Positions 2,122 through 38,330 of a stretch of 44,170 nt of DNA are shown piece after piece (positions within the stretch are counted from its first letter, which is position 1; every line of letters starts with the position of its first letter). The position numbers and the translations under genes are program-made. The notes below the pieces were generated by a model that made no database searches, was not told the DNA's origin, and saw only the letters and a program-made list of their open reading frames with translations. This DNA is from Planctomycetaceae bacterium (GTDB lineage Bacteria > Planctomycetota > Planctomycetia > Planctomycetales > Planctomycetaceae), in contig JAKFWA010000062.1 of assembly GCA_021732995.1 (NCBI GenBank), positions 1-44,170 on the forward strand. The letters run 5' to 3'.

Positions 2122-2259
2122 ATGTTGCTTTCCTATTTTGATCCTGGCGCCGGAAGCCTGTTGCTGCAGGCGGTTGTTGGTGGCGTCGGGGGTTTCGTGG
2201 TGTTGGGCCGGTACGTCTGGAATCAGATCGTCGCCCGCAAGTCGCCCCACCGCGAGTAA
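2122..2259 (+). CDS. small membrane protein with DPGxGS motif
   Basis: This 45-residue peptide begins MLLSYFDPGAGSLLLQ, continues with one Gly/Val-rich membrane helix (about residues 9-30) and ends in a short basic tail. Tiny proteins with a conserved DPG(T/A)GS-(L/M)-LLQ start are widespread in planctomycetes and cyanobacteria, often beside NoeA-like methyltransferase or phosphodiesterase genes, but have no assigned function that I know of. The ATG at 2122 is preferred over an upstream ATG at 2068 because the conserved motif begins a few residues after it. The next gene begins about 52 bases after its stop, so the two probably form an operon. A membrane-anchoring role for its partner is only inference. 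Confidence 0.75.
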   Translation: MLLSYFDPGAGSLLLQAVVGGVGGFVVLGRYVWNQIVARKSPHRE

Positions 2260-2311
2260 TAAACTCGCTGACCGTACTCACACAGACCTGCACGCGTTTT
2301 CGAGGCGTTTC

Positions 2312-3772
2312 GTGGTGAATGACTGCGTGGCCACACCGGACCTGGCGTTTGTTCCCGGCTCGTTTCGCGACCGCAGTTCGCGCGTCTTCGATACGGGCGA
2401 AGGGATCTATCGCGCGCTGAGCCCCGTCGGGCTGGCGGAATGGCGGGCCGTAGCCGAAAAGCCCTACTTCGCCCGGCTGATAGCTGAGGGTCAGGTTGTC
2501 GCGACCGAGGAAGTCGCCGGTTCCGAGGTGGCTCAACTCCTCGGCGAAGCCGATTACGCGGGCGTGCTGCGGCACGAGCGGGTCCCGTTCGTCTCGTACC
2601 CCTACGAGTGGTCGTTCGGCATGCTGCAGGACGCCGCCCGGCTGCAGTTGCGGATCCTGGCTGAGTCACTCCATCACGGGATCATGCTGAAGGATGCCTC
2701 GCCGTATAACGTCCAGTTCCGCGGACCAACTCCGCTCTTCATTGATGTGGGTTCGTTCGAACGACATCAGCCGGGCACGCCGTGGTCGTCCTACCAGCAG
2801 TTCTGCGAATTGTTCCTCTACCCGCTGATGCTGCAAGCCTATCGCGGCATTGATTTCACGACGCTGCTGCGCGGTGATCTGGAAGGCATCCCGGTTGAGC
2901 AGTGTGCCCACATGCTGGGCTGGGGCGACCTGTTCCGACCCGGCGTCTTTGCGCACGTCAGTCTACACCGCTGGCTGGGTCGAGCGGCTCAGAGGCAACC
3001 CACCAGCACGCTGAAGGAACTGCAGCAGAGCGGCTTTTCGGATGAACTGGTGGCTCGCAACGTGTCGCGACTGCGGGCCGTGGTGGAGAAGCTGAGCTGG
3101 GTCCCAGACCGCAGGATCTGGGTGGATTATGATCAGTCGTCGCCGATGGTCGCTCAGGACGCCGACAGCAAAGCCGCGTTCGTACGAGACGTCGTGCAGC
3201 GACGTGACTGGCCGCTGGTGTGGGACCTGGGCTGCAATCGCGGCCGCTATTCGCTGCTCGCCGCGCAGCGGGCTGGCACAGTCGTGGCGATGGATCGCGA
3301 TCCAGGCTGCGTGGAATTGCTGTATCAAAGTCTGAAGCACGATGGACCGTCCAACGTCTTGCCGCTGGTAGTAAACCTCGCAAATCCGTCGCCGGGGCTG
3401 GGCTGGCGCGGTCGCGAACGCATGCGACTCGAAGAGCGCGGCCAGCCGGACCTCGTGCTGTGCCTGGGGTTAATCCATCATCTGGTGATCAGCGCGAATC
3501 TACCGCTGCCGGATGTGGTCAAGTGGTTGAGATCGCTGAATGCGACGCTGATACTGGAATTCCCCACGCGGCAGGACCCGATGGTGCAGGCCCTGTTGCG
3601 CAATAAGCGGGATCAGTATAGCGATTATTCGCTGGAGCACCTGGAGCAACTGCTGCGACAGAATTCGTTCCGCGTAGTACAGCGCGAGCAATTACCCTCT
3701 GCCGAGCGGATTCTATTCCACTGTCACCCGGTCAGTTCTGAAGCTGACTCTGGCGCCGGGTTTCGGTCATGA
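2312..3772 (+). CDS. NoeA-like class I SAM-dependent methyltransferase with a kinase-like N-terminal half
   Basis: With GTG at 2312 (a GAGG lies six bases upstream; GTG at 2315 is the alternative) the product has about 486 residues. The C-terminal half is a Rossmann methyltransferase: motif I VWDLGCNRG at about 303-311, the acidic end of strand 2 at AMDRDPG, and an LCLGLIHHL motif near 411. The N-terminal half resembles NoeA-type proteins and carries LKDASPYN (126-133) followed by LFIDVGSF (about 142-149), which looks like the HxDxxxxN and DFG elements of the protein-kinase/aminoglycoside-phosphotransferase fold. NoeA is linked to nodulation host specificity, but homologues are common outside rhizobia; the acceptor here is unknown. 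The frame is open up to 2138, but that stretch overlaps the small membrane gene and is rich in Cys/Arg/Ser, so I do not include it. Confidence 0.8.
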   Translation: MVNDCVATPDLAFVPGSFRDRSSRVFDTGEGIYRALSPVGLAEWRAVAEKPYFARLIAEGQVVATEEVAGSEVAQLLGEADYAGVLRHERVPFVSYPYEWSFGMLQDAARLQLRILAESLHHGIMLKDASPYNVQFRGPTPLFIDVGSFERHQPGTPWSSYQQFCELFLYPLMLQAYRGIDFTTLLRGDLEGIPVEQCAHMLGWGDLFRPGVFAHVSLHRWLGRAAQRQPTSTLKELQQSGFSDELVARNVSRLRAVVEKLSWVPDRRIWVDYDQSSPMVAQDADSKAAFVRDVVQRRDWPLVWDLGCNRGRYSLLAAQRAGTVVAMDRDPGCVELLYQSLKHDGPSNVLPLVVNLANPSPGLGWRGRERMRLEERGQPDLVLCLGLIHHLVISANLPLPDVVKWLRSLNATLILEFPTRQDPMVQALLRNKRDQYSDYSLEHLEQLLRQNSFRVVQREQLPSAERILFHCHPVSSEADSGAGFRS

Positions 3773-4110: not shown

Positions 4111-6843
4111 ATGCCATCCAACGTCGACTCTCTCGAAGAAGGCTGTGCTGGTCGTTGGGAAGACACGCTCCGCAAGTTTGAACGCGCGTGGCTGGATCAG
4201 CGGAACCCGCGTATCGAAGACTTCGTGCCCGCTGACGCTGTTGCGGCCAGGCATGTGCTCCCGCAACTGGTCATGGCGGATCTCGCGTTCCGACTGAAAC
4301 GGCACGACAAGGCGCGTGTCGAAGAGTATTACATCCGGTGCCCGCAATTGTGCGACATCGATATTCTGGAAGAGCTGCTCCGCACCGAGTGCTTGTGGCG
4401 TTCCAAATTTGAAAAATTCAACCCGCTGGCCGAGTATACTCGCCGGTTTCCCGAGCTGCGGGATCAAATTGAAAAGTGGGCGCCAGCCGTTGATAATCTG
4501 CCGCCTACTGTTTTTCATTTTCAGAAGAATGGTGCCGAGGGATCGGCAGCCGAACCTCAGCCGGGAAATCAGGATCAGCCCGACGGCGCGGCGCCTGGAG
4601 CTGACCACACGCTCAATCTGGATGTATTCGGTGCGGCGGCGGAAGTCATGCAGGACATTTCACTCCGGCACATGCTGGGGTACGGCGGCATGGGTGCCGT
4701 CTATCTGGCGTGGCAGCACAGTCTGCAGAGGCATGTGGCAATTAAAGTCCTGGCCGATCCCGGTCTGCGAGACGCCGAAGGGAGATCGAGATTTCAACGC
4801 GAGGCCGTGGCGATGGCACGGCTGCAGCATCCGAATATCGTGCAGGTCTACGCGACCGGAGAAGCCGCCGGACGATTATACTATATTATGGAGTATGTGC
4901 CGGGCGGAAATCTCGGTGAGCGGATCCAGGCGGAAAAGTTCTCGGCGGATGCCAGTGCGCTCACGATCGAGCAACTGGCGCATGGGCTGCATGCGGCTCA
5001 CGAGCACAAACTGATTCACCGCGATATCAAGCCCGCCAACATTCTGCTGGCTGCGGATGGCACACCGAAACTCGGCGACTTCGGGCTCGTCAAACGCCTG
5101 GATCATCAGCAGGATACCATCCTCCCTGGCCCGCTGATGGGCACTCCGAAGTATATGTCTCCCGAGCAGGCCTCCGGTCGTACCGATGCGCTGTCCCCGG
5201 CTTCGGACATCTACTCGCTGGGCGCAATTCTGTATGAACTCATCACCGGGGAACTGCCTATTACCGGCGATGGGTTGCTCGAAGTGCTGGAGAATCTCAA
5301 GACGCGTGAACCGCGCCGCCCGAGAGACCTTGTTCCTTCGCTCTCACGAGACCTCGAAGCCATCTGCCTGAAATGCCTGCGGAAGTTACCTGCGGAACGG
5401 TATGCAACGGCACTGGAACTCGCTGAGGATCTGGCACGCTACCGCACGGGACAGCCGGTTCTTGCACCTCAACAGAACGCGTGGCATTCGCTGCGCCGCC
5501 TGTGGAGCAGCCGAGCGGTCAGGCTCGGTGTTGTGGCTGCTCTGGCAATCGTTGCAGCGCTGACAGTAGCAGCGTATCAAACTCCGGAACCGGCCAGCCA
5601 GAATGCCGTCGGCGCAAACATCGTCAGTGCCAGCGAGCACGCGCAAGACATTCGCCGCGTCTTTCTGGAAGCTCACAATGCACTCAACGCGAGCTTGACG
5701 AAGGAGAGCGCCGCGAAGGCCACTCTACGTGGCAAAATTTACTACAATTCGTTTCTGCAGCAGTATCAGAACGACTCCCGTTATATTAACGAGTGCGCCA
5801 TGGCCCGCTATGGCCTCGGCCGTATCGCTCGCCTTGAGGGAAATGAAGTCGAGGCGCTCCAGCAGTGGCACAGTGCTCTGGAACTCATACCGGTCGATGG
5901 TGAGTTGATCACGGATGACGATCTTCCCAGATTGCATTGTTACGTTCAGATCAATCTGCAACTGACGCTCCTGCAGACGCGCCGCAAGGACTACGACGCT
6001 GGTAGCAATACTCTTGCGAATTTACGGCGAGTTCTGGAAAAGCATTTCGAGCGAACTCCGCAGAACGTCTCCGTCAAATATGCGTTAGGACTGTGCTACT
6101 CGCGCCACGTGTCTTTAATGGGTAAGGGCCTCGCGCCGCAGGATGTTTTGCCGTTGTGTCAGCGAGCGTGCGAACTGTTTCAGGAGTTGCATGAGACTCA
6201 GCCACCGCCTCCGTTCGAAGCGGTGCCGACGCCGGAACGATATCGCTCGTGCCTGACCGAAGCGTTGACTCGGCGTGGAGCGGTGTTCGCGGAACTTGAA
6301 GACTACGGCACAGCCCGGCGAGACTTCGAAGCGGCGTTGAAGCATGCGGAAGCCGGATTGGCTGCGGGTGATATTGCGGACCCCAATGACGACGCCCCAT
6401 TGCAGAAGTGGGGCGAACTGCTGCGAGACGCCCAGCACGGACTCGCCCGTTCCAGCTACATGATCGGCAAGCAGCACCTGAACGATTCGCACCCCGAACT
6501 GGCGGATAAAGAGCTTGAACTGGCGATTCGCTTATGGTCGCAGATCATTGACTCCAAAACATCGACAGCCTCGCAGCGGTTTTATTTTGCGTCCAGCTAT
6601 TATCACCTCGCGATCGGCCAGCGACGACGGGGAGAACAGGCCGCGGCGTTAGATAATTATCAGACGGCGGTCACTTTGTGGGAAGCATTGCTCGCTGAGA
6701 AGCCATCCACGTATTTCAATCGGCAGCTCACGGAATCTCACCTCGCCGAAAGCCGCGCCGAGATCGCGAAGCTCACCGTGACGCTGTCGCTCAACGCGCT
6801 GCTGAAGCCGACGAATAATACTCAAAACGCCCCCGTAAAGTAG
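4111..6843 (+). CDS. transmembrane Ser/Thr protein kinase with C-terminal TPR-like region
   Basis: Hanks-type kinase of 910 residues. Residues 1-130 form the helical region seen before the kinase domain in many planctomycete kinases (NPRIEDF...VEEYYIRCPQL...EYTRRFPEL). The catalytic domain spans about 183-455: glycine loop GYGGMG (190-195), lysine K212 in VAIK, catalytic HRDIKPAN (303-310), DFG 323-325, activation segment GTPKYMSPEQ ending at E352, and SDIYSLG. All key residues are present, so it should be active. A membrane helix follows at about 470-489, placing the remaining 420 residues, helical and TPR-like, outside the cytoplasm. Five LRR membrane proteins follow on the same strand, so the kinase may be their signalling partner; that is inference. 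Its TAG stop lies inside the GTAG motif of the repeat at 6840. Confidence 0.9.
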   Translation: MPSNVDSLEEGCAGRWEDTLRKFERAWLDQRNPRIEDFVPADAVAARHVLPQLVMADLAFRLKRHDKARVEEYYIRCPQLCDIDILEELLRTECLWRSKFEKFNPLAEYTRRFPELRDQIEKWAPAVDNLPPTVFHFQKNGAEGSAAEPQPGNQDQPDGAAPGADHTLNLDVFGAAAEVMQDISLRHMLGYGGMGAVYLAWQHSLQRHVAIKVLADPGLRDAEGRSRFQREAVAMARLQHPNIVQVYATGEAAGRLYYIMEYVPGGNLGERIQAEKFSADASALTIEQLAHGLHAAHEHKLIHRDIKPANILLAADGTPKLGDFGLVKRLDHQQDTILPGPLMGTPKYMSPEQASGRTDALSPASDIYSLGAILYELITGELPITGDGLLEVLENLKTREPRRPRDLVPSLSRDLEAICLKCLRKLPAERYATALELAEDLARYRTGQPVLAPQQNAWHSLRRLWSSRAVRLGVVAALAIVAALTVAAYQTPEPASQNAVGANIVSASEHAQDIRRVFLEAHNALNASLTKESAAKATLRGKIYYNSFLQQYQNDSRYINECAMARYGLGRIARLEGNEVEALQQWHSALELIPVDGELITDDDLPRLHCYVQINLQLTLLQTRRKDYDAGSNTLANLRRVLEKHFERTPQNVSVKYALGLCYSRHVSLMGKGLAPQDVLPLCQRACELFQELHETQPPPPFEAVPTPERYRSCLTEALTRRGAVFAELEDYGTARRDFEAALKHAEAGLAAGDIADPNDDAPLQKWGELLRDAQHGLARSSYMIGKQHLNDSHPELADKELELAIRLWSQIIDSKTSTASQRFYFASSYYHLAIGQRRRGEQAAALDNYQTAVTLWEALLAEKPSTYFNRQLTESHLAESRAEIAKLTVTLSLNALLKPTNNTQNAPVK

Positions 6844-6900
6844 CAGGCAAGTTCCATGTGCCGTCCGCTCGGGCTACGGCACATGGAATGTGCCTGCTAC
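6840..6900. repeat. GTAG-type REP head-to-head pair, copy 1
   Basis: Two 25-base arms face each other. Each starts (or, reversed, ends) with GTAG, followed by a self-complementary core GGCACAT-TCC-ATGTGCC; one base differs in the left arm. The loop between the arms is about 11 bases. The left GTAG provides the TAG stop codon of the kinase. Related copies are at 23090 and 26519. GTAG plus palindrome in inverted pairs is the organisation described for REP sequences mobilised by RAYT (Y1) transposases; no such gene is in the window. Confidence 0.8.
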
Positions 6901-7007
6901 TGTCATTCGAAAGACGGATTGGTGGAAGCATGGCCTGGTACTCCGCGTGGCGCAAGGACCGATCGAACAAGACGCCCCCGGAGCCCGGCATCGCAGAGAA
7001 CACACTC

Positions 7008-8522
7008 ATGCCCGAACTCGAACCATCCCAACCCGCCGATGAACCTCGTCCGCCCTCCGCATGGGGCTGGCTGAAGCACCCGTGGCTGCTGCTGATTTTC
7101 GGCAGCGTGATCTCACTGGGGTTGTGGGTGGGGATCGGTGTGTGGATTGAGCACCGGCGAGAGCTCGCGCAAATCGAACTGGAGGAAACACATGGCCTCG
7201 GAAAGTGGATTGCTACAGGGAATCCGCGGTTTCCGATCTGGCTGCCGGAATGGTTGGGTGAGCAACTTCCGGACGACTGGCAGGAGAGAATTCTGATCAT
7301 CGATGCCGGTGCATGGATAATCGACAGGCCTCCGACGGATCACGAATTGCGACTGCTTGATCGCGGGCCACCCATCTTGGCAATTGAGTTCCGTGATCCT
7401 CATGCGATTTCCGACGAGGCTCTCTTGATGATCCTGGAACGACATCGCTTGAGGCATCTGGAGTTCTCTAGTGGCAGGAAACTGACCCGGCAGCACTTTG
7501 CTGCCCTTAGTCGTCAGGAGCACCTGGCGGCTCTGCACGGCCTCCAAGGACCGTTCGATCGGTCCCATTGGGATGACTTGGCCAAGATCAAGACCTTGAA
7601 CGGCCTCTCGCTGGATGGACCTCTGGCAGGATCCGCAAGCCTCGGATCGATGCCCAACTTGGAGTCTGTTAAGTGGGATCATTCGCAATTAACCGACGAA
7701 CAATTTGCAGAGCTTGCCGCCAACACCAAACTAAATTCGTTGCACCTGCGTCAAACACGCCTCACTTCCAAGTCATGGCCGGTGCTCGCGCGGATGAAGG
7801 ATCTTGTCGCCGTACAACTCGAAAGCCCGCACATCGATGACGCGACCGCTCATAGCCTGATCGACAAGCAGCCTCTGATGGAAGTTCGGCTCAGGGGAGG
7901 CAGCCTGTCCGATGCGGGAGTCAAGGAGTTGCTTGCATTGCCCAACTGGTACACGCTGGAAGTCGAAGGGCGTGGTCTCACCATCGCCACCCCTCGACTC
8001 GTACGGTCGTTGATGCCCAGATCAAACCGCGATTTGCCATCAGGACCTGGATTTGGGACGTCGCCTGTCCGCTCCATCGTGATTCGAGGCGGTCCCCCTG
8101 TGGTGGATGATTGGCTGGCTGAATTGGCCGAAGCCGACTTGTGGGGATTGGGATTCGTGAATTCCGCGATTACCGACAAAGGCGTCGAACACCTCAAAAA
8201 CCTCCCCGACCTTGAACACCTTATTCTGGCGGGGACTCGCATCACCGACCGTAGTATGGCGATTCTCAGCACGCTGCAGTACCTGCGGCGTCTGGATCTT
8301 CGCAATACCGCCATCACCGATGCCGGATTGAAACAACTCTCAATCAAAAAGAAGTCCGGGGTTAAATTGATCCTGCATGTTGATGGTACTCATATTACGA
8401 AGGAGGGGGTTGAAGAGTTTCTCAGCCGTCATCCTCATGTGAATGTATATGGGGTAGCCGACTTGCAGTACGACCAGACACTTGGCTACCTGATTCCATT
8501 GGACGAGGAACAGATGCCGTAA
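7008..8522 (+). CDS. single-pass membrane leucine-rich-repeat protein, array member 1
   Basis: First of five tandem paralogues; 504 residues from ATG 7008. The frame is open further upstream through the REP at 6840; I chose 7008 because the first residues (MPELEPSQPADE...WGWLKHPW) align with the starts of the other members. An ATG at 6930, preceded by GGTGG, is the alternative. Order: a short Pro-rich cytoplasmic tail (1-24), membrane helix about 25-47 (ending GVWIEHRR), a membrane-proximal block with RFPIWLPEWLGEQLPDDW, then LRRs to the C-terminus. The LRRs are of the bacterial ITDAGL type (e.g. GTRITDRSMAIL, NTAITDAGLKQL). The topology puts the LRRs outside the cytoplasm. Ligand unknown; a sensor or adhesin role is inference. 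Confidence 0.85.
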   Translation: MPELEPSQPADEPRPPSAWGWLKHPWLLLIFGSVISLGLWVGIGVWIEHRRELAQIELEETHGLGKWIATGNPRFPIWLPEWLGEQLPDDWQERILIIDAGAWIIDRPPTDHELRLLDRGPPILAIEFRDPHAISDEALLMILERHRLRHLEFSSGRKLTRQHFAALSRQEHLAALHGLQGPFDRSHWDDLAKIKTLNGLSLDGPLAGSASLGSMPNLESVKWDHSQLTDEQFAELAANTKLNSLHLRQTRLTSKSWPVLARMKDLVAVQLESPHIDDATAHSLIDKQPLMEVRLRGGSLSDAGVKELLALPNWYTLEVEGRGLTIATPRLVRSLMPRSNRDLPSGPGFGTSPVRSIVIRGGPPVVDDWLAELAEADLWGLGFVNSAITDKGVEHLKNLPDLEHLILAGTRITDRSMAILSTLQYLRRLDLRNTAITDAGLKQLSIKKKSGVKLILHVDGTHITKEGVEEFLSRHPHVNVYGVADLQYDQTLGYLIPLDEEQMP

Positions 8523-8585
8523 GCCAACTTAGTCAGCTCCGTGCACCATACGCAGTGCTAGTTTCTATTTTTCAGGACAGCTTTG

Positions 8586-10046
8586 ATGGAAGACTCAGAA
8601 CTCACACAACCCGCTGACGAACTTCGCCCGCCGTCCGCATGGGGCTGGCTGAAGCATCCGTGGGTGCTGCTGATCTTCGGCGGCCTCCTGTTGCTTGGCG
8701 TGTGGATCGGCGCCGGTGTATTTCTCGAGCATCGCAGAGCGGAAATCATCAAAACTCTGCAGGGTCGCGAGGGTATCAAGCTGGGTTACAACCACATGCG
8801 GTATCCTCTCTGGCTCCCGGAGTTCATCGGGAAAAGGTTGCCCCGTCCGAAGGGCTTCTTGGTTCGTATGGTCTCGAATGCCGACTTCTCCGGGGCTGTT
8901 TCTCCTGCGGATCTGGCATTGGTCAATCGCCTGCCTGAAATCAGTAGCTTCTCCTTTGAAGATGCGACTGAACTGTCAGAAGCCCAGTGGATCGAATTGC
9001 TGGAAGCCCATGAAGTCGAGTGGCTGGAATTTACAACTCCTCGCCGCCTCGCCGACACAGCATTCGCAGCCTTATCTCGTAACGGAAAGCTGACACATTT
9101 ATCCGTGCTGGCTGGCCCGTTCAAGCAGTCAGCGATTGATGCGCTGGGCCAGCAGCGTGACTTGAAAACGTTGAGGATCAACGGCGCGGCAACAACCGCG
9201 GACCTGACCTGCTTAGCGAAGCTGCCCGAGTTAGCGGATCTGGATTGGAGAAATTCCGACCTGAGTGACCAGCAGCTTGCTCAGTTGGCTGCCAGTAAGT
9301 CGCTGAATGAGCTCAAGCTGACCGGCACGAATCTGACAACTCGGTCATGGCCAGTGCTCGGTGCGTTGCGGGTCGAATCGCTCTGGCTCGAAGATCCCCA
9401 GATCAATGATGATACTCTGCGCGAAGTAAGCAAGAATCACTCGCTGCTCGCGCTCGCGTTCCGGGGAGGAACCATCACCGATGCGGGTGTGAAAGAGCTG
9501 CGAGCCCTGCCCGTTTTATCATCCCTGGAGTTGGACACCGCCGGACTGAGTCCTGCCAGTGCTCGCGCGATCGCCGAGTTCCCCAAGCTGCAGGGCTTGG
9601 GAGCTGTCGATGGCTCCGGAATTACCGATGAATGGCTGGCTGAACTGGGAGGCCAGCAACTTCGAGTCCTCGTACTTCGTAACTCGCAGGTGACGGACGC
9701 GGGCGTCGCCTGTCTGTCAGGCCAGGAATCGCTGGACGCGCTCAGTCTGCAGGGCAGCCAGATCACCGACGCATGCCTGTGCACACTGGGTCGCATGGTT
9801 ACTTCTCAAGGAATCCTGGATCTCAGCAATACGGCCATTACCGATTCGGGGCTGTGGTTATTCTCAACATCAATCAATCCGGAATCGAAGTGCACGCTTC
9901 TCTTGAGCGGGACCCAGGTCACCCAGGCCGGAGCGGAGCGTTTCCTGAAGGAACGCCCCAACGTCAATCTGGCGGGAATTGAAGGCGTCGGGCCTAGCGA
10001 TGTCGGTGACTGGACCATGCTGGTCTTGGACTGGAACCCGTACTGA
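8586..10046 (+). CDS. single-pass membrane leucine-rich-repeat protein, array member 2
   Basis: Paralogue of 486 residues. ATG 8586 is preceded by AGGA about eight bases upstream and gives MEDSELTQPADELRPPSAWG, closely matching member 1. The membrane helix is at about 25-48, followed by the membrane-proximal block RYPLWLPEFIGKRLP and LRRs of the ITDAGV type (GTITDAGVKEL, NSQVTDAGVACL, GSQITDACLCTL, NTAITDSGLWLF). It begins 63 bases after member 1. The conserved tail and helix with diverged repeats suggest a shared partner on the inner side and different ligands outside, but that is inference. Confidence 0.85.
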   Translation: MEDSELTQPADELRPPSAWGWLKHPWVLLIFGGLLLLGVWIGAGVFLEHRRAEIIKTLQGREGIKLGYNHMRYPLWLPEFIGKRLPRPKGFLVRMVSNADFSGAVSPADLALVNRLPEISSFSFEDATELSEAQWIELLEAHEVEWLEFTTPRRLADTAFAALSRNGKLTHLSVLAGPFKQSAIDALGQQRDLKTLRINGAATTADLTCLAKLPELADLDWRNSDLSDQQLAQLAASKSLNELKLTGTNLTTRSWPVLGALRVESLWLEDPQINDDTLREVSKNHSLLALAFRGGTITDAGVKELRALPVLSSLELDTAGLSPASARAIAEFPKLQGLGAVDGSGITDEWLAELGGQQLRVLVLRNSQVTDAGVACLSGQESLDALSLQGSQITDACLCTLGRMVTSQGILDLSNTAITDSGLWLFSTSINPESKCTLLLSGTQVTQAGAERFLKERPNVNLAGIEGVGPSDVGDWTMLVLDWNPY

Positions 10047-10098
10047 TCCGAGCGTGTGGTGTGAATATTCGACAGTATTAATACCCGCAGGAAATCGC

Positions 10099-11073
10099 AT
10101 GGACGACAATGCCGCAACATCTCCCGCCAACACCCCTCCGAGCGGCGGAGTCTGGTCCTGGCTAAAGCACCCGTGGCAACTGTTGATCTTCGGCAGTGTA
10201 ATCTCACTGGGGCTGTGGGTGGGAATTGGAGTGTGGATTGAACATCGGCGAGCACGTGCTTTCGAGGAATTGATGCAGACGTCCGGCATCGTACCCATCG
10301 AATTCGGTAGAGGACGTTCCCGTTATCCGATCTGGTTACCGAATTTGATTGGTAACCGGCTTCCCGAAGAGTGGAAGAGAAACGTTCTGATCGAGATCCC
10401 CGGTTGCTGGTTTTTCGAACGATCTCTCACAGACCGCGAGCTGCGACTGTTCGATCAGGTTTCGGGCGTCGCGTCCGTCGAGTTTAAAGACCCGCGATCC
10501 ATTTCCGATAAGGACCTGCTGCATTTCATTGAGCAGCACCCGTTGCAGATTCTGCAGTTTAACGGCTCACGGAAACTGACTCCGCAGCATCTTGGCGCTC
10601 TGGCGCGCCATGAACATATCCGTGTACTGGAGGGCGTGCTGGGACCATTCGACCAGCCCACACTGGATGGGTTGGCCAGAATCGCCAGCTTACGTCCACA
10701 CTTCGAATTAAGGCTTGATGGCCCCATCGAAAAATCCGTGCGCGTCAAACCGATGTCATCGCTGGCCACTCTGGAATGGGACCATTCCGATCTGACCGAC
10801 GATCAGTTTGCAGGTCTCGCAGCGGGGTTGTCGCCGCGTAAACTGGTACTTCGTGAGACATGCCTCACAACCAAATCGTGGCCGCTGCTTGAAAAGATGC
10901 CGCTGCAGTCTCTGGAACTCGAAAGCCCTCACCTGGATGACGCCATTCTTCCAAGTGTGCTCAGGCTGCGGCAGTTGGAAGGAATTCGATTGCGAGGTGG
11001 ATACGTGCCGAGGCTCTCAGTTGAGAAACTCATGATGACACTGCCTGAACTCACAGACGTAGATATTCAGTAA
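10099..11073 (+). CDS. single-pass membrane leucine-rich-repeat protein, array member 3 (C-terminally truncated)
   Basis: Starts at ATG 10099 with AGGA seven bases upstream; 324 residues against 480-504 in its neighbours. The N-terminus (MDDNAATSPAN...WSWLKHPW), membrane helix (about 27-49), block RYPIWLPNLIGNRLP and the first LRRs align with members 1, 2, 4 and 5. It stops (TAA 11071) just after LRGGYVPRLSVEKLMMTLPELTDV, where the others continue for about 150-180 residues of ITDAG repeats. I see no homologous continuation in the 74 bases before the next gene, so the end was probably deleted. The N-terminal part may still be made and anchored. Confidence 0.8.
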   Translation: MDDNAATSPANTPPSGGVWSWLKHPWQLLIFGSVISLGLWVGIGVWIEHRRARAFEELMQTSGIVPIEFGRGRSRYPIWLPNLIGNRLPEEWKRNVLIEIPGCWFFERSLTDRELRLFDQVSGVASVEFKDPRSISDKDLLHFIEQHPLQILQFNGSRKLTPQHLGALARHEHIRVLEGVLGPFDQPTLDGLARIASLRPHFELRLDGPIEKSVRVKPMSSLATLEWDHSDLTDDQFAGLAAGLSPRKLVLRETCLTTKSWPLLEKMPLQSLELESPHLDDAILPSVLRLRQLEGIRLRGGYVPRLSVEKLMMTLPELTDVDIQ

Positions 11074-11147
11074 CGGGGATCGCCTGGTGAGTTGGCGGCC
11101 AGGTTGAAGCCGTCGACTTCCACGCGAGACCGCAGGAATCATTGGTC

Positions 11148-12596
11148 ATGCAGGATTCACACACATCATCAGCACCTGTTGACTCACACCCCATTCCATC
11201 GCCGTCCTGGCTAAAGCACCCGTGGCTGCTGTTGATCTTCGGCGGAGTGATCGCTTTCGGCCTGTGGATGGGAATTGGTTTGTGGATCGAGCATCAGCAA
11301 TATCTCATCCTGCAAGATGTAAAACGTCATCCCGGAATCTATCTCGCACCTTCGGGTAACGAAAGATTTCCGGTCTGGCTGCCTCATTGGATTGGCAAAC
11401 ACTTACCGCCCAAATGGGGATTGGCAATTCCGACTCACTACGCCGTCGGTATTTCTGATCCTGCGTCTGACGAGCACTTGATGTTACTCAACCGACAAGC
11501 TGATTTCGTCGGAGAGATCACGTTTTGGAAAGACGCCAGTGGCATTTCAGATGACGCGCTCCTGCAATTCATCCAGGAGCAACCACTGTGGGACTTGACG
11601 TTTTGGAAGGGGCGGCGCCTGCAACCGAAACACCTGGATGCCCTGAGTGAGAAACAGGAATTCGGGACACTCGTCGGGATTCAAGGGCCACTCAATCAGA
11701 CCGTTGTCGATGCACTGGGAAAGTTGACGACTCTCGAAAATCTCTGGATTGATGGACCGATCCAAGCTGGCGTAAGTACCAGGAGCCTCACAAAGCTGAC
11801 TGCCCTCCACCTCCTCCACTGGGATGGTTCCGAGATCGCGGATGAGCAGTTTCTAAATATCGCGCGACTGCCAGCCCTGCGCTCGTTGTCTATTCGCCAG
11901 ACAAATCTCACGACGAAATCGTGGCCACTTTTCAGGTCAACAGATTTACGCATAGTCGAACTGGAGAGTCCCGGTATTGACGACACGACCGTTCGCTTCC
12001 TGGCACGGAATACATCCCTGTTCGAGATCTGTTTAAGAGGCGGCGCTCTGACGGATGAGGGTGTCGAAGAACTTTTCAAGTTGCCGAAGCTCTCTGCCAT
12101 TGAAATTGATGCGCGCCATCTGACCGTCGCGAGTGCTCGTCATCTGAGCGCCATGCCAGAATTGAGTCGAGTCAGCCTTAAAGGCGGGGCGAACATCACT
12201 GACGAATGGATTGCCCTGTTGGCACACAAAGAGTTCAGTCGCTTCGAGGTCTCAAACTCCGCGATTACAGATGACGGTGTCGCACTGCTGAAACATAATC
12301 CGCCAGTCATCAGCAGCCTGAGTCTGCCGGGAAGCCGCATTTCTGACAGCAGCATCGACGCGTTAAGCGTCATGGATCTGTCTCAATTAGACGTTCGTAA
12401 TACGAATATTACCGACACCGGCTTAAAGCGACTTGTCTTTGACGGCTACCTGCACCTCGGTGGTACCCAGGTCACCCCACAAGGTGCCGCCGAGTTCCTC
12501 AGCAGAAACCCCGAAGCTGTCGTATCTGGCATCAAAGGCATTCAACCCGATGCCGAGTTTGATTGGCTTATTCCGCTTGATGATGAATCGCCATGA
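11148..12596 (+). CDS. single-pass membrane leucine-rich-repeat protein, array member 4
   Basis: Paralogue of 482 residues from ATG 11148 (AGGA about ten bases upstream; a TTG six bases earlier is less likely). Short tail, then WLKHPWLLLIFGGVIAFGLW as the membrane segment (about 21-45), the block RFPVWLPHWIGKHLPPKWG, then LRRs (GGALTDEGVEEL, NSAITDDGVALL, GSRISDSSIDAL, NTNITDTGLKRL). It has a complete C-terminus, unlike member 3. It ends 62 bases before member 5. Confidence 0.85.
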   Translation: MQDSHTSSAPVDSHPIPSPSWLKHPWLLLIFGGVIAFGLWMGIGLWIEHQQYLILQDVKRHPGIYLAPSGNERFPVWLPHWIGKHLPPKWGLAIPTHYAVGISDPASDEHLMLLNRQADFVGEITFWKDASGISDDALLQFIQEQPLWDLTFWKGRRLQPKHLDALSEKQEFGTLVGIQGPLNQTVVDALGKLTTLENLWIDGPIQAGVSTRSLTKLTALHLLHWDGSEIADEQFLNIARLPALRSLSIRQTNLTTKSWPLFRSTDLRIVELESPGIDDTTVRFLARNTSLFEICLRGGALTDEGVEELFKLPKLSAIEIDARHLTVASARHLSAMPELSRVSLKGGANITDEWIALLAHKEFSRFEVSNSAITDDGVALLKHNPPVISSLSLPGSRISDSSIDALSVMDLSQLDVRNTNITDTGLKRLVFDGYLHLGGTQVTPQGAAEFLSRNPEAVVSGIKGIQPDAEFDWLIPLDDESP

Positions 12597-12658
12597 GTTA
12601 GCTGGATGCGTGTGGTACATTTGACGCGCCTGCCCTCCACAATTTCAAGACAGCCGCT

Positions 12659-14101
12659 ATGGAAGTTCCTGAACCCTCGCAGTCAATCGAAAAGCCCGGC
12701 TCATCGCCCAGCGTGAGCTGGCTGAAGCATCCGTGGCTGGTGTTGATTTGCGGGAGCGCGCTGTTGCTCGCGCTGTGGGTGGGACTCAGGGTGCGGATTG
12801 AGTATCAACGCAACGCGGCCCTTGAGGAACTCAGGAACCGCGATGACGTTCGGCTTCGTGAGAACGGGACGCGAGTTCCGGAGTGGCTGCCGGGCTGGCT
12901 GCGCGATCTGCTGCCGGAAAACTTGGAGAGCGAATGGAGCCAGTTGACGCAGGTTAATCTCCACGACTGCCAGGACGATCGCGTTCTGCTCCTGCTCAGC
13001 CGGATTGGAGAAGCCTACAATCTGGCACTTCACGGAGACTGCAAGTTCTCAGACGACGCTCTGCTGCAGCTATTTGAGTCGCATCGATTTCATGACATCA
13101 TCTTTTGGAGTCAGTCATTCAAGCTGACGGCGCAACATCTGGCGGTACTGAGGCAGCAGGGTAACATCTCTCAGTTATGGGGACTTGGCGGCCCGTTCAA
13201 CGAACAGCAACTCCGCGAACTGGCCGGGATGAGCAGTCTGGAATCCCTGCACCTCGACGGACCGCTCGACACCACGGCCAAGGTTCCAGTCATCCACTGG
13301 CCTCGACTGACAGAATTCCGATGGCACGAGTCTCAGCTCACCGACGCGCAATTTGAGAAACTGGTTGCTGCATCGCCAGTGACAAACTTGCAGCTCGATG
13401 AAACTCGCCTCACATCACAATCGTGGCCGCTGCTGGAACGCATGCCGCTTGAGCTTGTGCGCATTGCACGTCAGCACATTGATGACACATTACTGACGAG
13501 CCTGGCCCGCATTCCGTCGCTGGAAATCATCTACTTGCCAGATGCAACGATCACCGACTCCGGCGTGCAGGAACTTGCAGCCCTGCCTCGGTTGGAGTCC
13601 TTTGAGATACCTGCCAGCGGCTTGACGATTGCCGGCGCGCGACATCTTCGAGAATGCAAGAGTCTGCGGAGCCTCAGGCTCAATGGCGGGTCGAATGTGA
13701 CTGATGAGTGGATTGCCGAAATGGTTCAAGATCGGCTCAAGCATCTTGATATTCCCGATTCAGCCATCACCGATGCCGGCGTGGCAACACTTCAGAAAAC
13801 CTGCCGTCTGGAGTACCTGGACCTGTCTGGCAGTCGCGTCACGGATGGTTGCCTGCAATCGCTGAGTCTGATGACCGATCTGGGGGACTTGGATCTCAGC
13901 GACACCGCGATCACGGATGAGGGTTTGAAGCACGCTCAACTCATGCGCGGCTCAGTCGGTGCCTTCTTTCCTCCTCACCTGACCCTTGATGGCACGCGTG
14001 TAACGCCTGAAGGTGTCAAAGAGTTTCTGCGTCAGAACAGGAACCCCAACGTCCGAGTATCAGTGGGACCGTCACCGGCGTTCGAGCTACGCTTGCGCTG
14101 A
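12659..14101 (+). CDS. single-pass membrane leucine-rich-repeat protein, array member 5
   Basis: Last paralogue, 480 residues, starting MEVPEPSQSIEKPG. The membrane segment is at about 21-43 (WLKHPWLVLICGSALLLALW). The membrane-proximal block is shorter (VPEWLPGWLRDLLPENL) and lacks the RFP/RYP start of the others, making this the most diverged copy. LRRs follow to the end (DATITDSGVQEL, DSAITDAGVATL, GSRVTDGCLQSL, DTAITDEGLKHA). The 198-bp repeat element starts 39 bases after its stop, marking the end of the array. Confidence 0.85.
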   Translation: MEVPEPSQSIEKPGSSPSVSWLKHPWLVLICGSALLLALWVGLRVRIEYQRNAALEELRNRDDVRLRENGTRVPEWLPGWLRDLLPENLESEWSQLTQVNLHDCQDDRVLLLLSRIGEAYNLALHGDCKFSDDALLQLFESHRFHDIIFWSQSFKLTAQHLAVLRQQGNISQLWGLGGPFNEQQLRELAGMSSLESLHLDGPLDTTAKVPVIHWPRLTEFRWHESQLTDAQFEKLVAASPVTNLQLDETRLTSQSWPLLERMPLELVRIARQHIDDTLLTSLARIPSLEIIYLPDATITDSGVQELAALPRLESFEIPASGLTIAGARHLRECKSLRSLRLNGGSNVTDEWIAEMVQDRLKHLDIPDSAITDAGVATLQKTCRLEYLDLSGSRVTDGCLQSLSLMTDLGDLDLSDTAITDEGLKHAQLMRGSVGAFFPPHLTLDGTRVTPEGVKEFLRQNRNPNVRVSVGPSPAFELRLR

Positions 14102-14139
14102 CGATGACTCGCAGTGGCCGCTGATTGCGAAGAGCGCAC

Positions 14140-14337
14140 CCTGGAGTGCTCCGGCTTGACGGAGCCCTCCATTGGCTCGTGAGTGGCGCCGGCGATTGCT
14201 GTAACGCTGAGGCTGTTACAAAGACGTGAAGATGAAGGACCTTCTGGCGAAGACCGATGAGAGGTCGCAAGCGGCTCGGTTGTTGAATGCTCTGGTTGAG
14301 GGACATGGATGGCTCCGTCGAGCCGGAGCACTCCAGG
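14140..14337. mobile_element. 198-bp MITE-like element, copy A
   Basis: Terminal inverted repeats of about 34 bases (14140-14173 and 14305-14337) enclose about 131 bp. Each terminus folds as TGGAG / CTCCG-loop-CGGAG / CTCCA. The right end has small substitutions (GGATGG, GTCGAG). The interior of this copy is not clearly related to copies B-D. No target-site duplication is obvious. It fills the gap between the last LRR gene and the heme-binding protein. Confidence 0.7.
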
Positions 14338-14457
14338 GTGACGCAACCGGGCGTCGCAGGGCGGTTCACTTCGAGCGGGGTGGCGGGGCGGTTATGGTTT
14401 ACGGGCTCGCGCTGCGAGTTTGCGGTCTGCTCTCTCTCCCACCTCAAGGAACCCTCC

Positions 14458-17744: not shown

Positions 17745-17786
17745 TCAGTGCGATCCTTTTCATGCAGAAGAACGAGGAAGCAAACT

Positions 17787-18758
17787 ATGACGATGTCTCG
17801 CGAAGAGCGTTGGCTTGCTCGGACGATGTTCGAGAACCGCGTCCTTAAAGCGAACGGTGTCGTTTTCCAATCGTTGTTCTGGTCGGTCATGAAAGCGAAG
17901 TATGGAGCTGACTTTGTAGCTGTTCGTCCGCAAGGATCGCGCGGAGACGGAGGGAATGATGGCTACCTGCCGAGGGATGGCCATTATTTCCAAGTATATG
18001 GTCCTGTTGATCCAAATGAGAAAGTTACTGAAGCTGCAAAGAAGCTGAATGAGGACTATGCTAAAGTGGCCACCGAATGGGGCTCAACAAATAAAGTAAG
18101 GCAGTATTCGTTTGTCTTCAACGACAAGTACGAAGGCACTTTTCGAGACATTGCCCAAGAGCTTGGGAATCTCGAAACCGCGAACGGTATTCCCTGCAGA
18201 CCGTTCGTGGCCGCGGACCTCGAAGATTTTTTCTGTGGCCTCGATGACTCAAAGATCGAACACGTATTGGGTAGCCTCGTTCCGAATCCTTCGACGATCT
18301 CGAGGCCTCGTTTCGATGCGTTGTCAAAGGTTGTTGACTATATCCTATCCAGTCCTGCGAATGTTCTTCAGCCTCGCTTTGGGGAGTTGCCTGACATTGA
18401 TGAAAAAGTGAAACTCAATGAACTTTCTTGCTGTTGGGCGGATCTGGTTCGTAGCGGTTGTCGTCAAGTAGGTCATGTTGATGACTTCTTCCGCAAGAAC
18501 TCAAGATTCGTCAAGCAGCATCTTCGTAACCATATGATTGAGACGTATCGTGGGGCCAAAGAATGGGCACTTCAACAAACTAAGCTGACGCATTTGCCGG
18601 ACGCTGTATTCATGGAGTTCCGTCAGAGGTTGATGCCCGCCGAAGCCACCATTGCTCACGCTCAAGCCGTCGACATTTTAGTTGCGTACTACTTCGAAGC
18701 GTGCGACGTATTTGATCCATTCGCTGAACCAGGAAGCCCGAATGCTTCTCCCCGATAA
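17787..18758 (+). CDS. ABC-three-component system effector, PD-(D/E)XK-nuclease-like
   Basis: First gene of a three-gene overlapping operon; 323 residues from ATG 17787 (GAGGAAG seven bases upstream). The N-terminal third has a restriction-endonuclease-like pattern: FENRVLKANGVVFQSLFW, then RPQGSRGDGGNDGYLP and YFQVYGP (about 42-75), where the conserved Asp and the Gln-x-Tyr segment stand where a PD-(D/E)XK active site would be. The canonical Lys is not visible, so catalysis is uncertain. The remainder is helical and may contact the partner proteins. The gene order effector, middle component, DUF2326-like ATPase is that of ABC-3C conflict systems. The gene is visibly richer in A/T than the heme gene before it, suggesting transfer. 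By guilt-by-association it should be the toxic output of an anti-invader system. Confidence 0.7.
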   Translation: MTMSREERWLARTMFENRVLKANGVVFQSLFWSVMKAKYGADFVAVRPQGSRGDGGNDGYLPRDGHYFQVYGPVDPNEKVTEAAKKLNEDYAKVATEWGSTNKVRQYSFVFNDKYEGTFRDIAQELGNLETANGIPCRPFVAADLEDFFCGLDDSKIEHVLGSLVPNPSTISRPRFDALSKVVDYILSSPANVLQPRFGELPDIDEKVKLNELSCCWADLVRSGCRQVGHVDDFFRKNSRFVKQHLRNHMIETYRGAKEWALQQTKLTHLPDAVFMEFRQRLMPAEATIAHAQAVDILVAYYFEACDVFDPFAEPGSPNASPR

Positions 18759-18987
18759 GCATATCCGCATCTCCGAATCGGTCTTAGGCGTAGCTGGCTT
18801 ATTATTGGCCACGCTTAGTCAGCCTTTGTCGCTTGATCAGTTGATGGGGCGGGTTTCGCCAATGTTCGGCAGCCCGGATTGGCCAGCAGAACATGGGACC
18901 GATTCGGTTGTGCTTGGATTGTGCTTCCTGAACGCCATTGGATTGGTCGATGTTGCTGACAATGGAGAAGTTCATCGATGCGACTAA
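18742..18987 (+). CDS. ABC-three-component system middle component (MC6-like)
   Basis: This 81-residue protein starts MLLPDKHIRISESVLGVAGL, the hallmark start of a family of ABC-3C middle components. It overlaps the effector end by 17 bases and the ATPase start by 10, implying translational coupling. A small wHTH-like fold linking ATPase and effector is the general model for these proteins. The middle (FGSPDWPAEHGTDSVVLGLCFLNAIGLVDV) agrees with family members ending in a short Cys-containing tail. The assignment rests on recognised sequence flavour plus operon position, not on an alignment. Confidence 0.72.
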   Translation: MLLPDKHIRISESVLGVAGLLLATLSQPLSLDQLMGRVSPMFGSPDWPAEHGTDSVVLGLCFLNAIGLVDVADNGEVHRCD

Positions 18988-20741
18988 TTGAGCTTTCAGC
19001 TAACCAGTCATCCTTTAAGCGAGTCAGTTTCAACTCCAGCGGCATTTCGCTGATCGTGGGACGTTATACAGCAAAAACGGCGCGCAGCTTGACTTCGACG
19101 TACAATGGTGTCGGAAAGTCGTTGATCGTTGCGCTGATTCACTACTGCCTTGGCTCAAAGAGGAACGTACATTTCGACGAACATCTCAAGGGCTGGCGAT
19201 TTACGCTGCGTTTTGAGCATGAAGGTCAGATCCATGAGGTTCATCGATCTCCCGGCGAGACAAAGATCGAGTTCGACCATAAAGAACTGACGTTAGCTAC
19301 GCTGCTTTCGCAATTTAAGGAAATGCGGATTTTCCGCTTTCCCGCCGAATGCCCTGACTACCTCACTTTTCGATCAGCGCTGTCATTCTTCTTACGCCCA
19401 AAGAAGACATCTTATTCGGCTTTCGACAAGCCCGAAGCTAAGTGGACTGATTATCAAAGTATTCTTATTCAAAGCTTCCTCTTGGGATTGGATATCCATC
19501 GAGTAGTTGAAAAGTACGGGGCAAAAACACGACTCGATCAATTGGCAACCTCGGCAAAGCAGTTTCGCAGTGATGCGGAACTGCGTTCGTTCTACGTCGC
19601 AGATCGTAATCCCGTAGTCGAACTCGCGGAGCTTGAGGCGTCGATCGCCGATCTCACGGCTAACATTCAAGCATTTCAGGTCGCAGAAGACTATGCTGAA
19701 CGACGCATTGCGTCTGATCACCTGCATCAGCGTTTGATGCAACTTAGCGATGAAGAAGTCATCCTGACAAATCTGATTGGTGATATCGACAGTTCCTTGC
19801 AGGTTCGAGCTGACGTGGCGCCTAGGGACCTCATCCAACTGTATGAAGAGGCCAGCATTGCGCTGCCAGAACTAGTTTTGAAGCGACTCGCTGATGTTGA
19901 AGAGTTTCATCGGCGACTACATGAGAACCGTCGGAAGCGCCTTCTTATTGACCGTCGCAATGCAGAATTGGAACTTTCTGCGGTGCAGAAAAAACGTGAA
20001 GTATTGCAACACGAGCTTGACACCGAGTTACAGTATCTCGCTGCGCATCGTGCTCTTGACGAATATACCGAGAATAACCGTTATTTGTCCGAACTCACGG
20101 CTCGCCGCCGAAAAATTCAAGACTACGTTGATCTGTTGGCTCTCTACGAGGAACAATCTCAGAGAATCCGCCTCGAAATGGGGCAAGCCAGTCTGGATAC
20201 GTCACACTATTTGCGAGAGTCTAAAAGCTATCTTGATGATCTGATGGAGCGTTTTCGAAACTTCGCTCACGAGCTTTATGGCGCAATTCCGTCCGGCTTG
20301 GTAATTCAGAACAATGATGGCATCAACCAGCTACGATACAACATCGAAGCTCACATTCCGTTCGATGCTGCTGATGGAATCAATCAAGGCAAGATTTTTT
20401 GCTACGACTTACTACTGCTTACACTGCACCAGAATCATTCCATGAGCTTTCTATTTCACGACAATCGCCTGTTTGCCGAGATGGATCACAGACAAAGATA
20501 CGGACTGTTTCGATTAGCCGACCGCGTCTGTCGCGAGCAGAATTTGCAGTACATTGCTTCAGTCAATGAGGATATGGTTGAGTCAGTCCGCGAAGTTTCC
20601 GGGGCAGATTTTGATCGTTTGTTTGTTGAATCTCGAATACTGGAACTCACTGACGAACCGGGAGGCGCCGGCAAGCTCCTCGGAATTCAAGTTGACATGC
20701 CGTACGAATCTGACCGGAAGAAGTCTGTCGTCGAAGCGTAG
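18978..20741 (+). CDS. ABC-three-component system ATPase (DUF2326-type, SMC/RecF-like)
   Basis: SMC-like ABC ATPase of 587 residues. Walker A is YNGVGKSL (about 42-49), unusually preceded by a TAKTARSLTS insertion. A long helical, probably coiled-coil middle follows (about 190-430, rich in E/L/R), then the C-terminal half-site with SFLFHDNRLFAEMDHRQR (Walker B/D-loop region near 490-510) and LQYIASVNEDMV, as in DUF2326 proteins. In ABC-3C systems this subunit is thought to sense invader nucleic acid and license the effector. The start overlaps the middle-component stop. The operon ends about 70 bases before the small antitoxin-like genes. The A/T-richer codons match the effector gene. Confidence 0.82.
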   Translation: MRLIELSANQSSFKRVSFNSSGISLIVGRYTAKTARSLTSTYNGVGKSLIVALIHYCLGSKRNVHFDEHLKGWRFTLRFEHEGQIHEVHRSPGETKIEFDHKELTLATLLSQFKEMRIFRFPAECPDYLTFRSALSFFLRPKKTSYSAFDKPEAKWTDYQSILIQSFLLGLDIHRVVEKYGAKTRLDQLATSAKQFRSDAELRSFYVADRNPVVELAELEASIADLTANIQAFQVAEDYAERRIASDHLHQRLMQLSDEEVILTNLIGDIDSSLQVRADVAPRDLIQLYEEASIALPELVLKRLADVEEFHRRLHENRRKRLLIDRRNAELELSAVQKKREVLQHELDTELQYLAAHRALDEYTENNRYLSELTARRRKIQDYVDLLALYEEQSQRIRLEMGQASLDTSHYLRESKSYLDDLMERFRNFAHELYGAIPSGLVIQNNDGINQLRYNIEAHIPFDAADGINQGKIFCYDLLLLTLHQNHSMSFLFHDNRLFAEMDHRQRYGLFRLADRVCREQNLQYIASVNEDMVESVREVSGADFDRLFVESRILELTDEPGGAGKLLGIQVDMPYESDRKKSVVEA

Positions 20742-23089: not shown

Positions 23090-23170
23090 GTAGCAGGCAC
23101 TCTGCGATTGCCCTAGCCTGAAAATCGGCCTGCAGAACTCTGCGAACGGCACATGGAATGTGCCTGCTAC
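23090..23170. repeat. GTAG-type REP pair, copy 2 (left arm diverged)
   Basis: The right arm (23147-23170) is a perfect match to the arm seen at 6876-6900 and 26556-26580. The left arm keeps only GTAGCAGGCAC, then differs, and the central part is longer (81 bases overall), suggesting partial decay or replacement. Confidence 0.65.
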
Positions 23171-24799: not shown

Positions 24800-24998
24800 C
24801 CTGGAGTGCTCCGGCTTGACGGAGCCCTCCATTGTTTGCGGCGCAGAGGTAACGGATGCTAAAGCAACCTGCGTCGTTATGAATTAACTTTGAGAAATGG
24901 TGTATCATCCGAACGCTGTTGAACGGCGGCAGCGTTGTCTTCAACCGCGCCGATTCCCGCAAACTATGGAGGGCTGAGTCAAGCCTCAGCACTCCAGG
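24800..24998. mobile_element. 198-bp MITE-like element, copy B
   Basis: 199 bp. The left end is the CTCCG/CGGAG variant; the right end carries the CTGAG/CTCAG variant, so the two ends have different stem sequences but the same shape. The ends extend to about 43 bases if GTTTGCGG and its complement CCGCAAAC are included. The interior near the right end (ATCCGAACGCTG...CCGATTCCCGC) is related to copy D and to inverted copy C. Confidence 0.8.
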
Positions 24999-25028
24999 GT
25001 TGTCGCCTTACGTTATAGGACGCGATTC

Positions 25029-26518: not shown

Positions 26519-26580
26519 GTAGCAGGCACATTCCATGTGCCGTCCGCTGAGGGCCACGGCACATGGAATGTGCCTGCTAC
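26519..26580. repeat. GTAG-type REP head-to-head pair, copy 3
   Basis: The best-preserved copy: both 25-base arms are perfect complements and each has GTAG plus GGCACAT-TCC-ATGTGCC; the loop is 12 bases. It lies 127 bases upstream of the DUF1559 gene start. Confidence 0.85.
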
Positions 26581-26706
26581 TCTGTTGTGGCTGGTCTCCG
26601 ACCGAGCCACAACACGCGACGTAGGCCTCCAAGTGATCTGCTTTGTGGTCGGCGCGGTTGTTTCTCAAAATGTGTCTTACGTCGCGTCAGTCGAAGGAGT
26701 CTTCAC

Positions 26707-29385: not shown

Positions 29386-29613
29386 GGCCTAGCTGACCGG
29401 CGCCACCCAGGGACTTTTGCTACCAGCTTACCCAAACTCTGAACGGCGTTGCGTGCCACCCGACCGCCCTCCTGGCTTTGACGCGTATCGTTGCTACTGT
29501 TGTCGTGTACGGTATTATCGGTTTGTGACGATGTGGCCACTCCCCTGGCGATGAGCTGTCGGTCTTAACGGCGGCTGTTGCCGATGCGATCTTCAGTCGA
29601 AGGAGTCTTCACC

Positions 29614-38112: not shown

Positions 38113-38154
38113 GTCGCACACCTTTATAAAAAGTAATATTCAAGTATTACAATA

Positions 38155-38181: not shown

Positions 38182-38185
38182 GCAC

Positions 38186-38292: not shown

Positions 38293-38330
38293 ACGCCGCG
38301 TCTTGCTGACGCGGATGTTGCTTGTCGATG

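Follow-up and report, generated by a model that had tools for sequence, protein, structure and literature searches.

Five tandem genes for membrane-anchored leucine-rich repeat (LRR) proteins, here called W1 to W5, follow a Ser/Thr kinase gene on contig C75 (JAKFWA010000062.1), in the 9.39-Mb genome of a Planctomycetaceae bacterium; the whole contig stretch of 44,170 nucleotides (nt) is the window analysed. At about even confidence, we read the five as part of a putative family of signal-anchored LRR binding proteins, spread over several loci and restricted to one genus, for which the kinase here is a chance neighbour. The unit conserved among the window copies is the motif WLKHPW together with the transmembrane (TM) helix, and within the family the concave strand face of the modelled LRR domain varies most.

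Family members and their distribution

The earlier note on this DNA had described five same-strand paralogous membrane LRR genes after a kinase, a layout that stands. The open reading frames (ORFs) at 7008-14101 encode proteins homologous far above chance, with 37-47% identity of W2 to W5 to W1. Their matches to profile A1 range from E 3e-146 to 4e-235, values that are self-matches given that A1 was built from these five proteins, and the best match outside the family is at 6e-22. The features of the locus are as follows.

4111-6843, plus strand: Ser/Thr kinase gene, 910 aa, with PF00069 domain, TM helix and tetratricopeptide repeat (TPR) region; neighbour of the array, partnership unsupported
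6839-6901, no strand: hairpin resembling repetitive extragenic palindromic (REP) elements, a GTAG-ended palindrome with two 26-nt arms that are 92% complementary; dispersed family
7008-8522 (start possibly ATG 6930), plus strand: LRR copy W1, TM anchor and LRR solenoid
7068-7160, plus strand: WLKHPW and TM segment of W1 (residues 21-51)
8586-10046, plus strand: LRR copy W2, body grouping with the C44 and C37a copies, N-terminal segment nearest W1
10099-11073, plus strand: LRR copy W3, truncated at the C-terminus to 324 codons (480-504 in the others)
11148-12596, plus strand: LRR copy W4, AlphaFold2 model with TM helix 25-60 and LRR solenoid to ~460
12659-14101, plus strand: LRR copy W5, grouped with a contig C24 copy (100/100)
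8646-8738, 10159-10251, 11208-11300 and 12719-12811: WLKHPW and TM equivalents in W2 to W5
14137-14340, no strand: second dispersed inverted-repeat element, 36-nt arms with 132 nt between, directly past the W5 gene

The ORF list starts W1 at GTG 6858; ATG 6930 has, by eye, the better ribosome site, and translation may start there instead.

Searching the bacterium's own genome with A1 returned 11 members at five loci, all at E 1.3e-132 or better: the five in the window, two divergent genes on C24, a tandem pair on C37 and single genes on C34 and C44. The match ranked after these, at 6e-22, contains LRRs only. A single member was found in the congener (only one was examined). The search covered 98 other genomes of the class, that is the congener and 97 more, with up to 16 candidates scored per genome; among the matches listed for the 97, none bears the anchor and none starts before profile position 153. 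Scanning GTDB contigs with A1 gave 21 pattern matches, none of them a relative. Wider occurrence was rejected on these results, with the congener holding the only member among the matches listed in the 98 genomes, and the family appears, as seen so far, to be restricted to one genus. No title or abstract opening found in the literature described this family or a system of an LRR array plus kinase.

A 12-row tree rejected the window five as a clade (approximately unbiased test, p 7e-68; 88 log-likelihood units worse), which rules out a recent tandem duplication of the five. Because they do not form one clade, the lineages in the array are old. Strong support was obtained for W5 with C24p (100/100), W2 with C44 and C37a (99/99) and W1 with W3 (98/93). 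Among 22 chosen neighbour ORFs at the five other family loci (congener included), the only cross-locus similarity was one pair shared by C34 and C24, which we take to be DUF1501-like. Congener homologues of the methyltransferase and dehydrogenase that flank the locus lie on separate contigs, C242 and C240, and those stretches (10.5 and 14.7 kb) gave no match to the kinase, W1, W2, W4 or W5. A single empty syntenic site in the congener is not demonstrable, the flank homologues being on different contigs.

Anchor helix, LRR fold and concave face

Pooled over the ten window pairs, amino-acid identity was 0.674 in WLKHPW plus TM, 0.275 in the tail, 0.263 in membrane-proximal residues 52-113, 0.343 in residues 114-230 and 0.415 in LRR residues 231-330; the C-terminal part, which W3 lacks, reached 0.390 in six pairs. 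The earlier note had taken tail, helix and membrane-proximal block together as near-identical. This was right for the helix, with WLKHPW invariant in all five window copies and a family helix frame of WLKHPW...W-x-G...E-H. Tail and block are the least conserved parts, and the pooled identities rule out either as a conserved element. An R-x-P-x-WLP motif within the block is invariant in the five copies, and W1 and W2 have 14 of 20 tail residues in common. In the model the block covers the last part of the helix and then the opening strands and short helical segments at the entrance to the solenoid. Small residues occupy both helix positions 38 and 42 in 10 of the 12 family members, an arrangement we infer to be compatible with helix packing.

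The anchor segment also has a history distinct from the rest of the gene: in their N-terminal segments W2 and W5 come closest to W1, and in their bodies to C44 and C24p, respectively. Nucleotide identity in TM was 0.734 within the window against 0.636 between window and other copies, and when the 11 genes were relabelled, 10 of 462 arrangements were as extreme; the corresponding values for the body were 0.472 and 0.467, with 160 of 462 as extreme. At four-fold degenerate sites, window pairs were identical at 53/92 TM sites (0.576, against 0.316 expected from composition) and at 247/706 body sites (0.350, against 0.309). Since the silent sites of TM are alike beyond composition, protein-level selection alone is insufficient to account for them. 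Gene conversion within the array fits best as their source, and homogenisation at the DNA level probably explains part of the helix identity. Telling against this, four-fold identity in TM is raised, more weakly, between loci as well (window-other 118/254, 0.465; other-other 44/112, 0.393), and there is room for codon constraint as another cause.

AlphaFold2 gave a model from the five window proteins with a mean pLDDT (predicted local distance difference test) of 86.6, in which the tail is disordered, residues 25-60 form a helix and the LRR solenoid extends to ~460, with strands starting at 222, 246, 269, 293, 317, 341, 365, 390 and 413. These 24-residue strand-helix repeats are of the CC/GALA-like LRR type. 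LRR_6 exceeded the Pfam cut-off in W1, W2 and W5, fell below it in W4 and was absent from W3. Fold matches in the PDB included FBXL2, ribonuclease inhibitor, RipG4/GALA, LegL1 and NLRs, the best profile match being the GALA protein 9j7j (E 6e-22). The window family thus has the strand-then-helix repeats of 24 residues in common with the GALA-like/CC-type proteins RipG/GALA and LegL1, but differs from GALA in having an N-terminal TM anchor and no F-box: none was found in the Pfam scan, and residues 1-60 are tail and TM helix. Membership of the GALA effector family was ruled out on the missing N-terminal F-box. PMC2244805 already noted, in 2008, members of the GALA-like/CC-type LRR from Gemmata and Rhodopirellula. 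It also describes the convex side of GALA as more prone to positive selection, whereas the window family appears to vary most on the concave side.

Concave positions were taken from the model strands and compared in ten copies, W3 and the congener copy being left out. Mean pairwise identity was 0.167 at the 31 exposed concave positions and 0.421 at the remaining 239 LRR positions (p 3e-7), and for polar positions the values were 0.174 (27) and 0.371 (136; p 2e-4). Identity in the other classes of these ten copies was 0.226 in the post-TM helix, 0.278 in the tail, 0.383 in the whole LRR and 0.586 at buried strand positions, and buried or structural LRR positions classed by regular expression (regex) reached 0.713. 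The earlier note had proposed diversified LRRs on a common anchor, with LRR surfaces evolving faster than the tail. The common anchor and the faster concave positions were borne out; the LRR as a whole is more conserved than the tail (0.415 against 0.275 in the window). With silent sites of the body almost saturated, the ratio of non-synonymous to synonymous substitution by segment is not estimable.

As controls we used the two LRR genes that have a clear orthologue in the congener among the loci examined (81% and 71% identity), with positions classed by regex in controls and family alike. Here the concave face was the more conserved, with 12/15 and 34/36 positions identical against 13/25 and 36/60 convex polar positions (pooled 46/51 against 49/85, Fisher p 4e-5). 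Most family pairs behaved in the opposite way: concave against convex polar identities were 5/15 and 11/25 for C34/C37b, 5/21 and 14/35 for W5/C24p, 3/18 and 16/30 for W2/C44, and 2/18 and 10/30 for W2/C37a, with a slight reversal for W4 and the congener copy (2/9 and 4/15). Four disjoint pairs (C34/C37b, W5/C24p, W2/C44 and W1/W3) together gave 17/63 concave against 46/105 convex (Fisher p 0.03). The comparison supports a putative diverging binding face.

Several points weigh against this reading. The other polar LRR positions include turn residues fixed by the fold, which favours the contrast with the concave class. W1/W3 (4/9 concave, 5/15 convex) and W1/W4 (7/18, 8/29) show no reversal, and the four disjoint pairs were chosen once the single-pair results were known. 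The controls are two pairs only, and are orthologues at 71-81% identity, while paralogues at 43-58% make up the four family pairs. With regex classes and all ordered pairs of the genome pooled, the concave value was 0.185 against 0.216 for convex polar positions. Rapid concave divergence in paralogues can be a matter of relaxed constraint instead of selection. In the tree, five of the nine inner branches, including the placement of W4, are unresolved.

These points lead to the most serious rival, a neutral or near-neutral birth-and-death process in which the LRRs drift, the anchor stays alike through gene conversion and hydrophobic constraint, and no receptor repertoire exists. We regard it as doubtful, though several points favour it. 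W3 lacks its last ~160 residues, with a stop at 11073 and the C-terminal repeats gone, and no C-terminal remnant was seen by eye in the three forward frames of 10951-11157. An N-terminal anchor fragment with no LRR domain lies at C24:95641-95790 (L098 10641-10791), ~400 bp from the divergent pair of full members. Presence is patchy (11 copies against one in the congener), and the saturated silent sites, the homogenised silent sites of TM and the small gap between concave and convex positions with all pairs pooled count in its favour too. Against drift, in 10 of the 11 copies the match extends along most of the profile and the frame is open, uninterrupted by stops, and buried and structural LRR positions were kept while the concave face diverged. 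Fold positions kept and a concave face changed together mean constraint on the fold and change at the binding face.

Our preferred reading, of signal-anchored binding proteins, would work as follows, and a membrane-tethered binding protein is the most likely mechanism. Each copy would be tethered to the membrane with its concave face re-specified for a different ligand. The common helix, with its small residues at 38 and 42, would pack the copies together or onto a common membrane partner. The array itself would evolve by birth and death, with exchange of DNA in the anchor segment maintaining part of the likeness among its copies.

A more specific proposal, which we consider unlikely, is a receptor-like LRR repertoire without a kinase, in which the concave face diversifies and the common TM helix is kept by DNA exchange and selection, so that many sensors feed into one membrane partner. 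In plants, LRR receptor-like proteins (RLPs) and receptor-like kinases (RLKs) are membrane-anchored paralogues in clusters with a variable concave face and a kept anchor; proteins of this kind are among the profile matches in the PDB. The window family is similar in its clustered, anchored LRR paralogues, its apparently variable concave face and its kept anchor. It differs in that homology is limited to the LRR repeats, which are of another class, in that there is no demonstrated co-receptor kinase, and in the position of the anchor, which is N-terminal and not C-terminal as in the plant proteins. If true, the repertoire would be a bacterial counterpart, in its logic, to plant RLP clusters, within one planctomycete genus.

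Membrane orientation and the neighbouring kinase

The default orientation of a short N-terminal anchor places the domain that follows it out of the cytoplasm, and by this analogy the LRRs more likely project outward. The charge rules conflict: within 15 residues, 10 of the 12 members carry more lysines and arginines on the C-terminal side of the helix than on the N-terminal side, and the other two carry as many on both, counts that alone would put the LRRs inside, and net charge around the helix is ambiguous (by our count N-in favoured in four members, N-out in three and a tie in five). The cytoplasmic tail and external LRRs of the earlier note are therefore to be taken as assumptions. We judge it improbable that the proteins are N-out/C-in, with cytoplasmic LRR solenoids serving as membrane-anchored adaptors or scaffolds whose diversified face binds cytoplasmic proteins. 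Besides the lysine and arginine counts, that arrangement would agree with many of the nearest folds, since FBXL2, ribonuclease inhibitor, NLRs and GALA/RipG4 are intracellular; resemblance of fold is, however, uninformative on compartment. It would also sit poorly with a kinase-TM-LRR fusion encoded on C27 of the same genome, whose LRRs come after its TM helix and hence lie outside if its kinase is inside.

The kinase next to the array was correctly described by the earlier note as a membrane Ser/Thr kinase with intact catalytic residues. PF00069 matched at E 1.6e-49 over residues ~184-440, and GYGGMG, VAIK, HRDIKPAN and DFG, which we take to be the kinase motifs, are legible in the translation. 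The single TM helix (470-488) is preceded by three arginines within 15 residues, whereas the 15 residues that follow contain neither lysine nor arginine. The protein is predicted to be single-pass, with the charges placing the kinase domain inside, and past the helix its C-terminal part consists of TPR-like repeats. Residues 500-910, the TPR region, went unmatched in the congener, whose assembly of 380 contigs is 97% complete, and gave three weak matches only (E 1.6e-5 to 6.7e-4) in the 97 genomes besides its own. Pirellula is among the species in the lists of TPR kinases in PMC1262709; the 4111-6843 product resembles the bacterial TPR-bearing Ser/Thr kinases treated there in its kinase plus TPR architecture, and differs in having a TPR region with no close homologue in those 97 genomes. 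Elsewhere in the genome, a 74-residue fragment that is 64-67% identical to kinase residues 836-909 is encoded at 185-394 of L102 on contig C134 (6.9 kb), the rest of which yielded neither a kinase nor a family LRR match. PADLOC matched 33 families to the kinase; the 25 listed are PD-T4-6 models together with mad6, C3a189 and MkoA, and each aligns to the kinase domain. It gave no match to W1, W2, W4 or W5, the four LRR proteins scanned. Membership of a defence system was rejected on this basis.

From position and orientation, the earlier note had paired the kinase with the array, one kinase serving five LRR proteins in a neighbourhood that would recur in other genomes. In its full form this would be a single signalling unit in which the LRRs act as sensors on the outside and the kinase is activated through the shared segment. 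The genes are indeed contiguous on one strand, with spacers from the kinase through to W5 of 164 (W1 starting at 7008), 63, 52, 74 and 62 nt, a spacing compatible with co-transcription; promoter-like sites at the locus numbered 3 against 4.0 expected by chance. The intact motifs, the single-pass topology with the kinase domain predicted inside and the small-xxx-small helix motif in most members would also suit such a unit.

Neither the pairing nor its recurrence survived comparison with the other loci. Using tblastn, we found no match to the kinase in 19 kb around each of the other family loci, four in this genome and the fifth in the congener, stretches that reach 4.7 to 10.6 kb past the family genes. 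The genome-wide kinase search listed no match on C34 and C44, and its nearest listed kinases on C24 and C37 are more than 20 kb from family genes. By our count from 114 listed matches, there are ~95 kinase genes in the genome; assuming ~7,500 genes, kinase adjacency at one of five loci has a chance of roughly 1-in-8, so that a chance kinase neighbour is unremarkable. The congener, which has an LRR homologue, gave no match to the TPR region, and the tail, through which an LRR protein would contact the kinase, is among the least conserved segments.

The genome also already holds kinase-TM-LRR fusions, so that the organism can couple LRRs to kinases in one chain. The clearest, on C27 (L124), is 1,393 residues long; its catalytic motif is at 267, its TM helix at 486, and LRR units begin at 800. 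Further such frames, of 3,348 and 1,769 residues, are on C32 (L125, L126), the shorter with one regex LRR unit, and another on C18 (L127) runs off the examined stretch. The fusions are like the window family in carrying the same general LRR type in a membrane protein; they differ in having the kinase in the same chain, and A1 matches them only from position 185, not in the anchor. An LRR kinase of Pseudomonas aeruginosa was on record in 2005, according to PMC1262709.

Between the kinase and the array sits the 6839-6901 hairpin, which contains the kinase stop codon; its folding energy is -53 kcal/mol over 101 nt (z -6.4). Its GTAG-ended palindrome arms have 116 genome-wide matches at up to 2 mismatches against 0 for the control, and several arm pairs are 38-39 nt apart in opposite orientation, forming inverted dimers. 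The hairpin is thus a short, dispersed, GTAG-ended palindrome, as are GTAG-tagged REP repeats, which PMC3733652 describes as short palindromes, often inverted dimers, with Planctomycetes among their hosts. A common transcript may run across it. With no kinase match in the 19 kb around the five other loci, no TPR match in the congener and a REP-type hairpin between the genes, the kinase was rejected as a recurrent partner; it looks like a chance neighbour, not a signalling partner, and would act independently, as a single-pass kinase whose TPR region lies outside. The signalling unit is the least probable of the readings considered.

Remaining features and meaning of the family

Further GTAG-ended REP-like palindromes occur in the window at 23148-23170 and 26519-26580, and many copies are on the short contigs C106, C113 and C124. 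The second repeat, of ~200 bp with 36-nt inverted arms, recurs at 24800-25000, 32045-32241 and 33109-33304; at least 120 genome matches were obtained, with arms counted on both strands and the best 40 of 70 candidates scored. Upstream of the kinase, a methyltransferase-like ORF (2138-3772) has a weak PADLOC mad2 match (E 1.5e-7) and a congener homologue of 56% identity. Downstream of the array, 17748-20741 holds a two-gene ABC-3C-like pair of CTD10 and DUF2326 proteins (PADLOC candidate PDC-M68, E 4e-10 and 5e-78). The tandem genes at 26563-29142 and 29578-32019 look paralogous by eye, with similar N-termini of secreted-protein type and similar C-terminal parts. The window's enolase-like protein is closest to assemblies of uncultured Planctomyces (83%) and Schlesneria (76-77%), in keeping with a planctomycete, in a scan from which records of the bacterium's own genome may have been absent. 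Phage-tail genes occupy 36085-44117 on the minus strand and encode a tail assembly protein, central tail fibre J and a fibre-like protein bearing RCC1-type repeats; they may belong to a prophage, or to an element of phage origin, at the end of the contig.

The genomes examined are rich in LRR genes, and this one is also rich in kinases; to our knowledge, little function has been assigned to either. The negative result for the kinase matters here, as position and orientation alone would have filed the array as a receptor-kinase system. If our reading of the family is true, its fixed anchor and variable face would make it a tractable diversifying recognition repertoire in bacteria.

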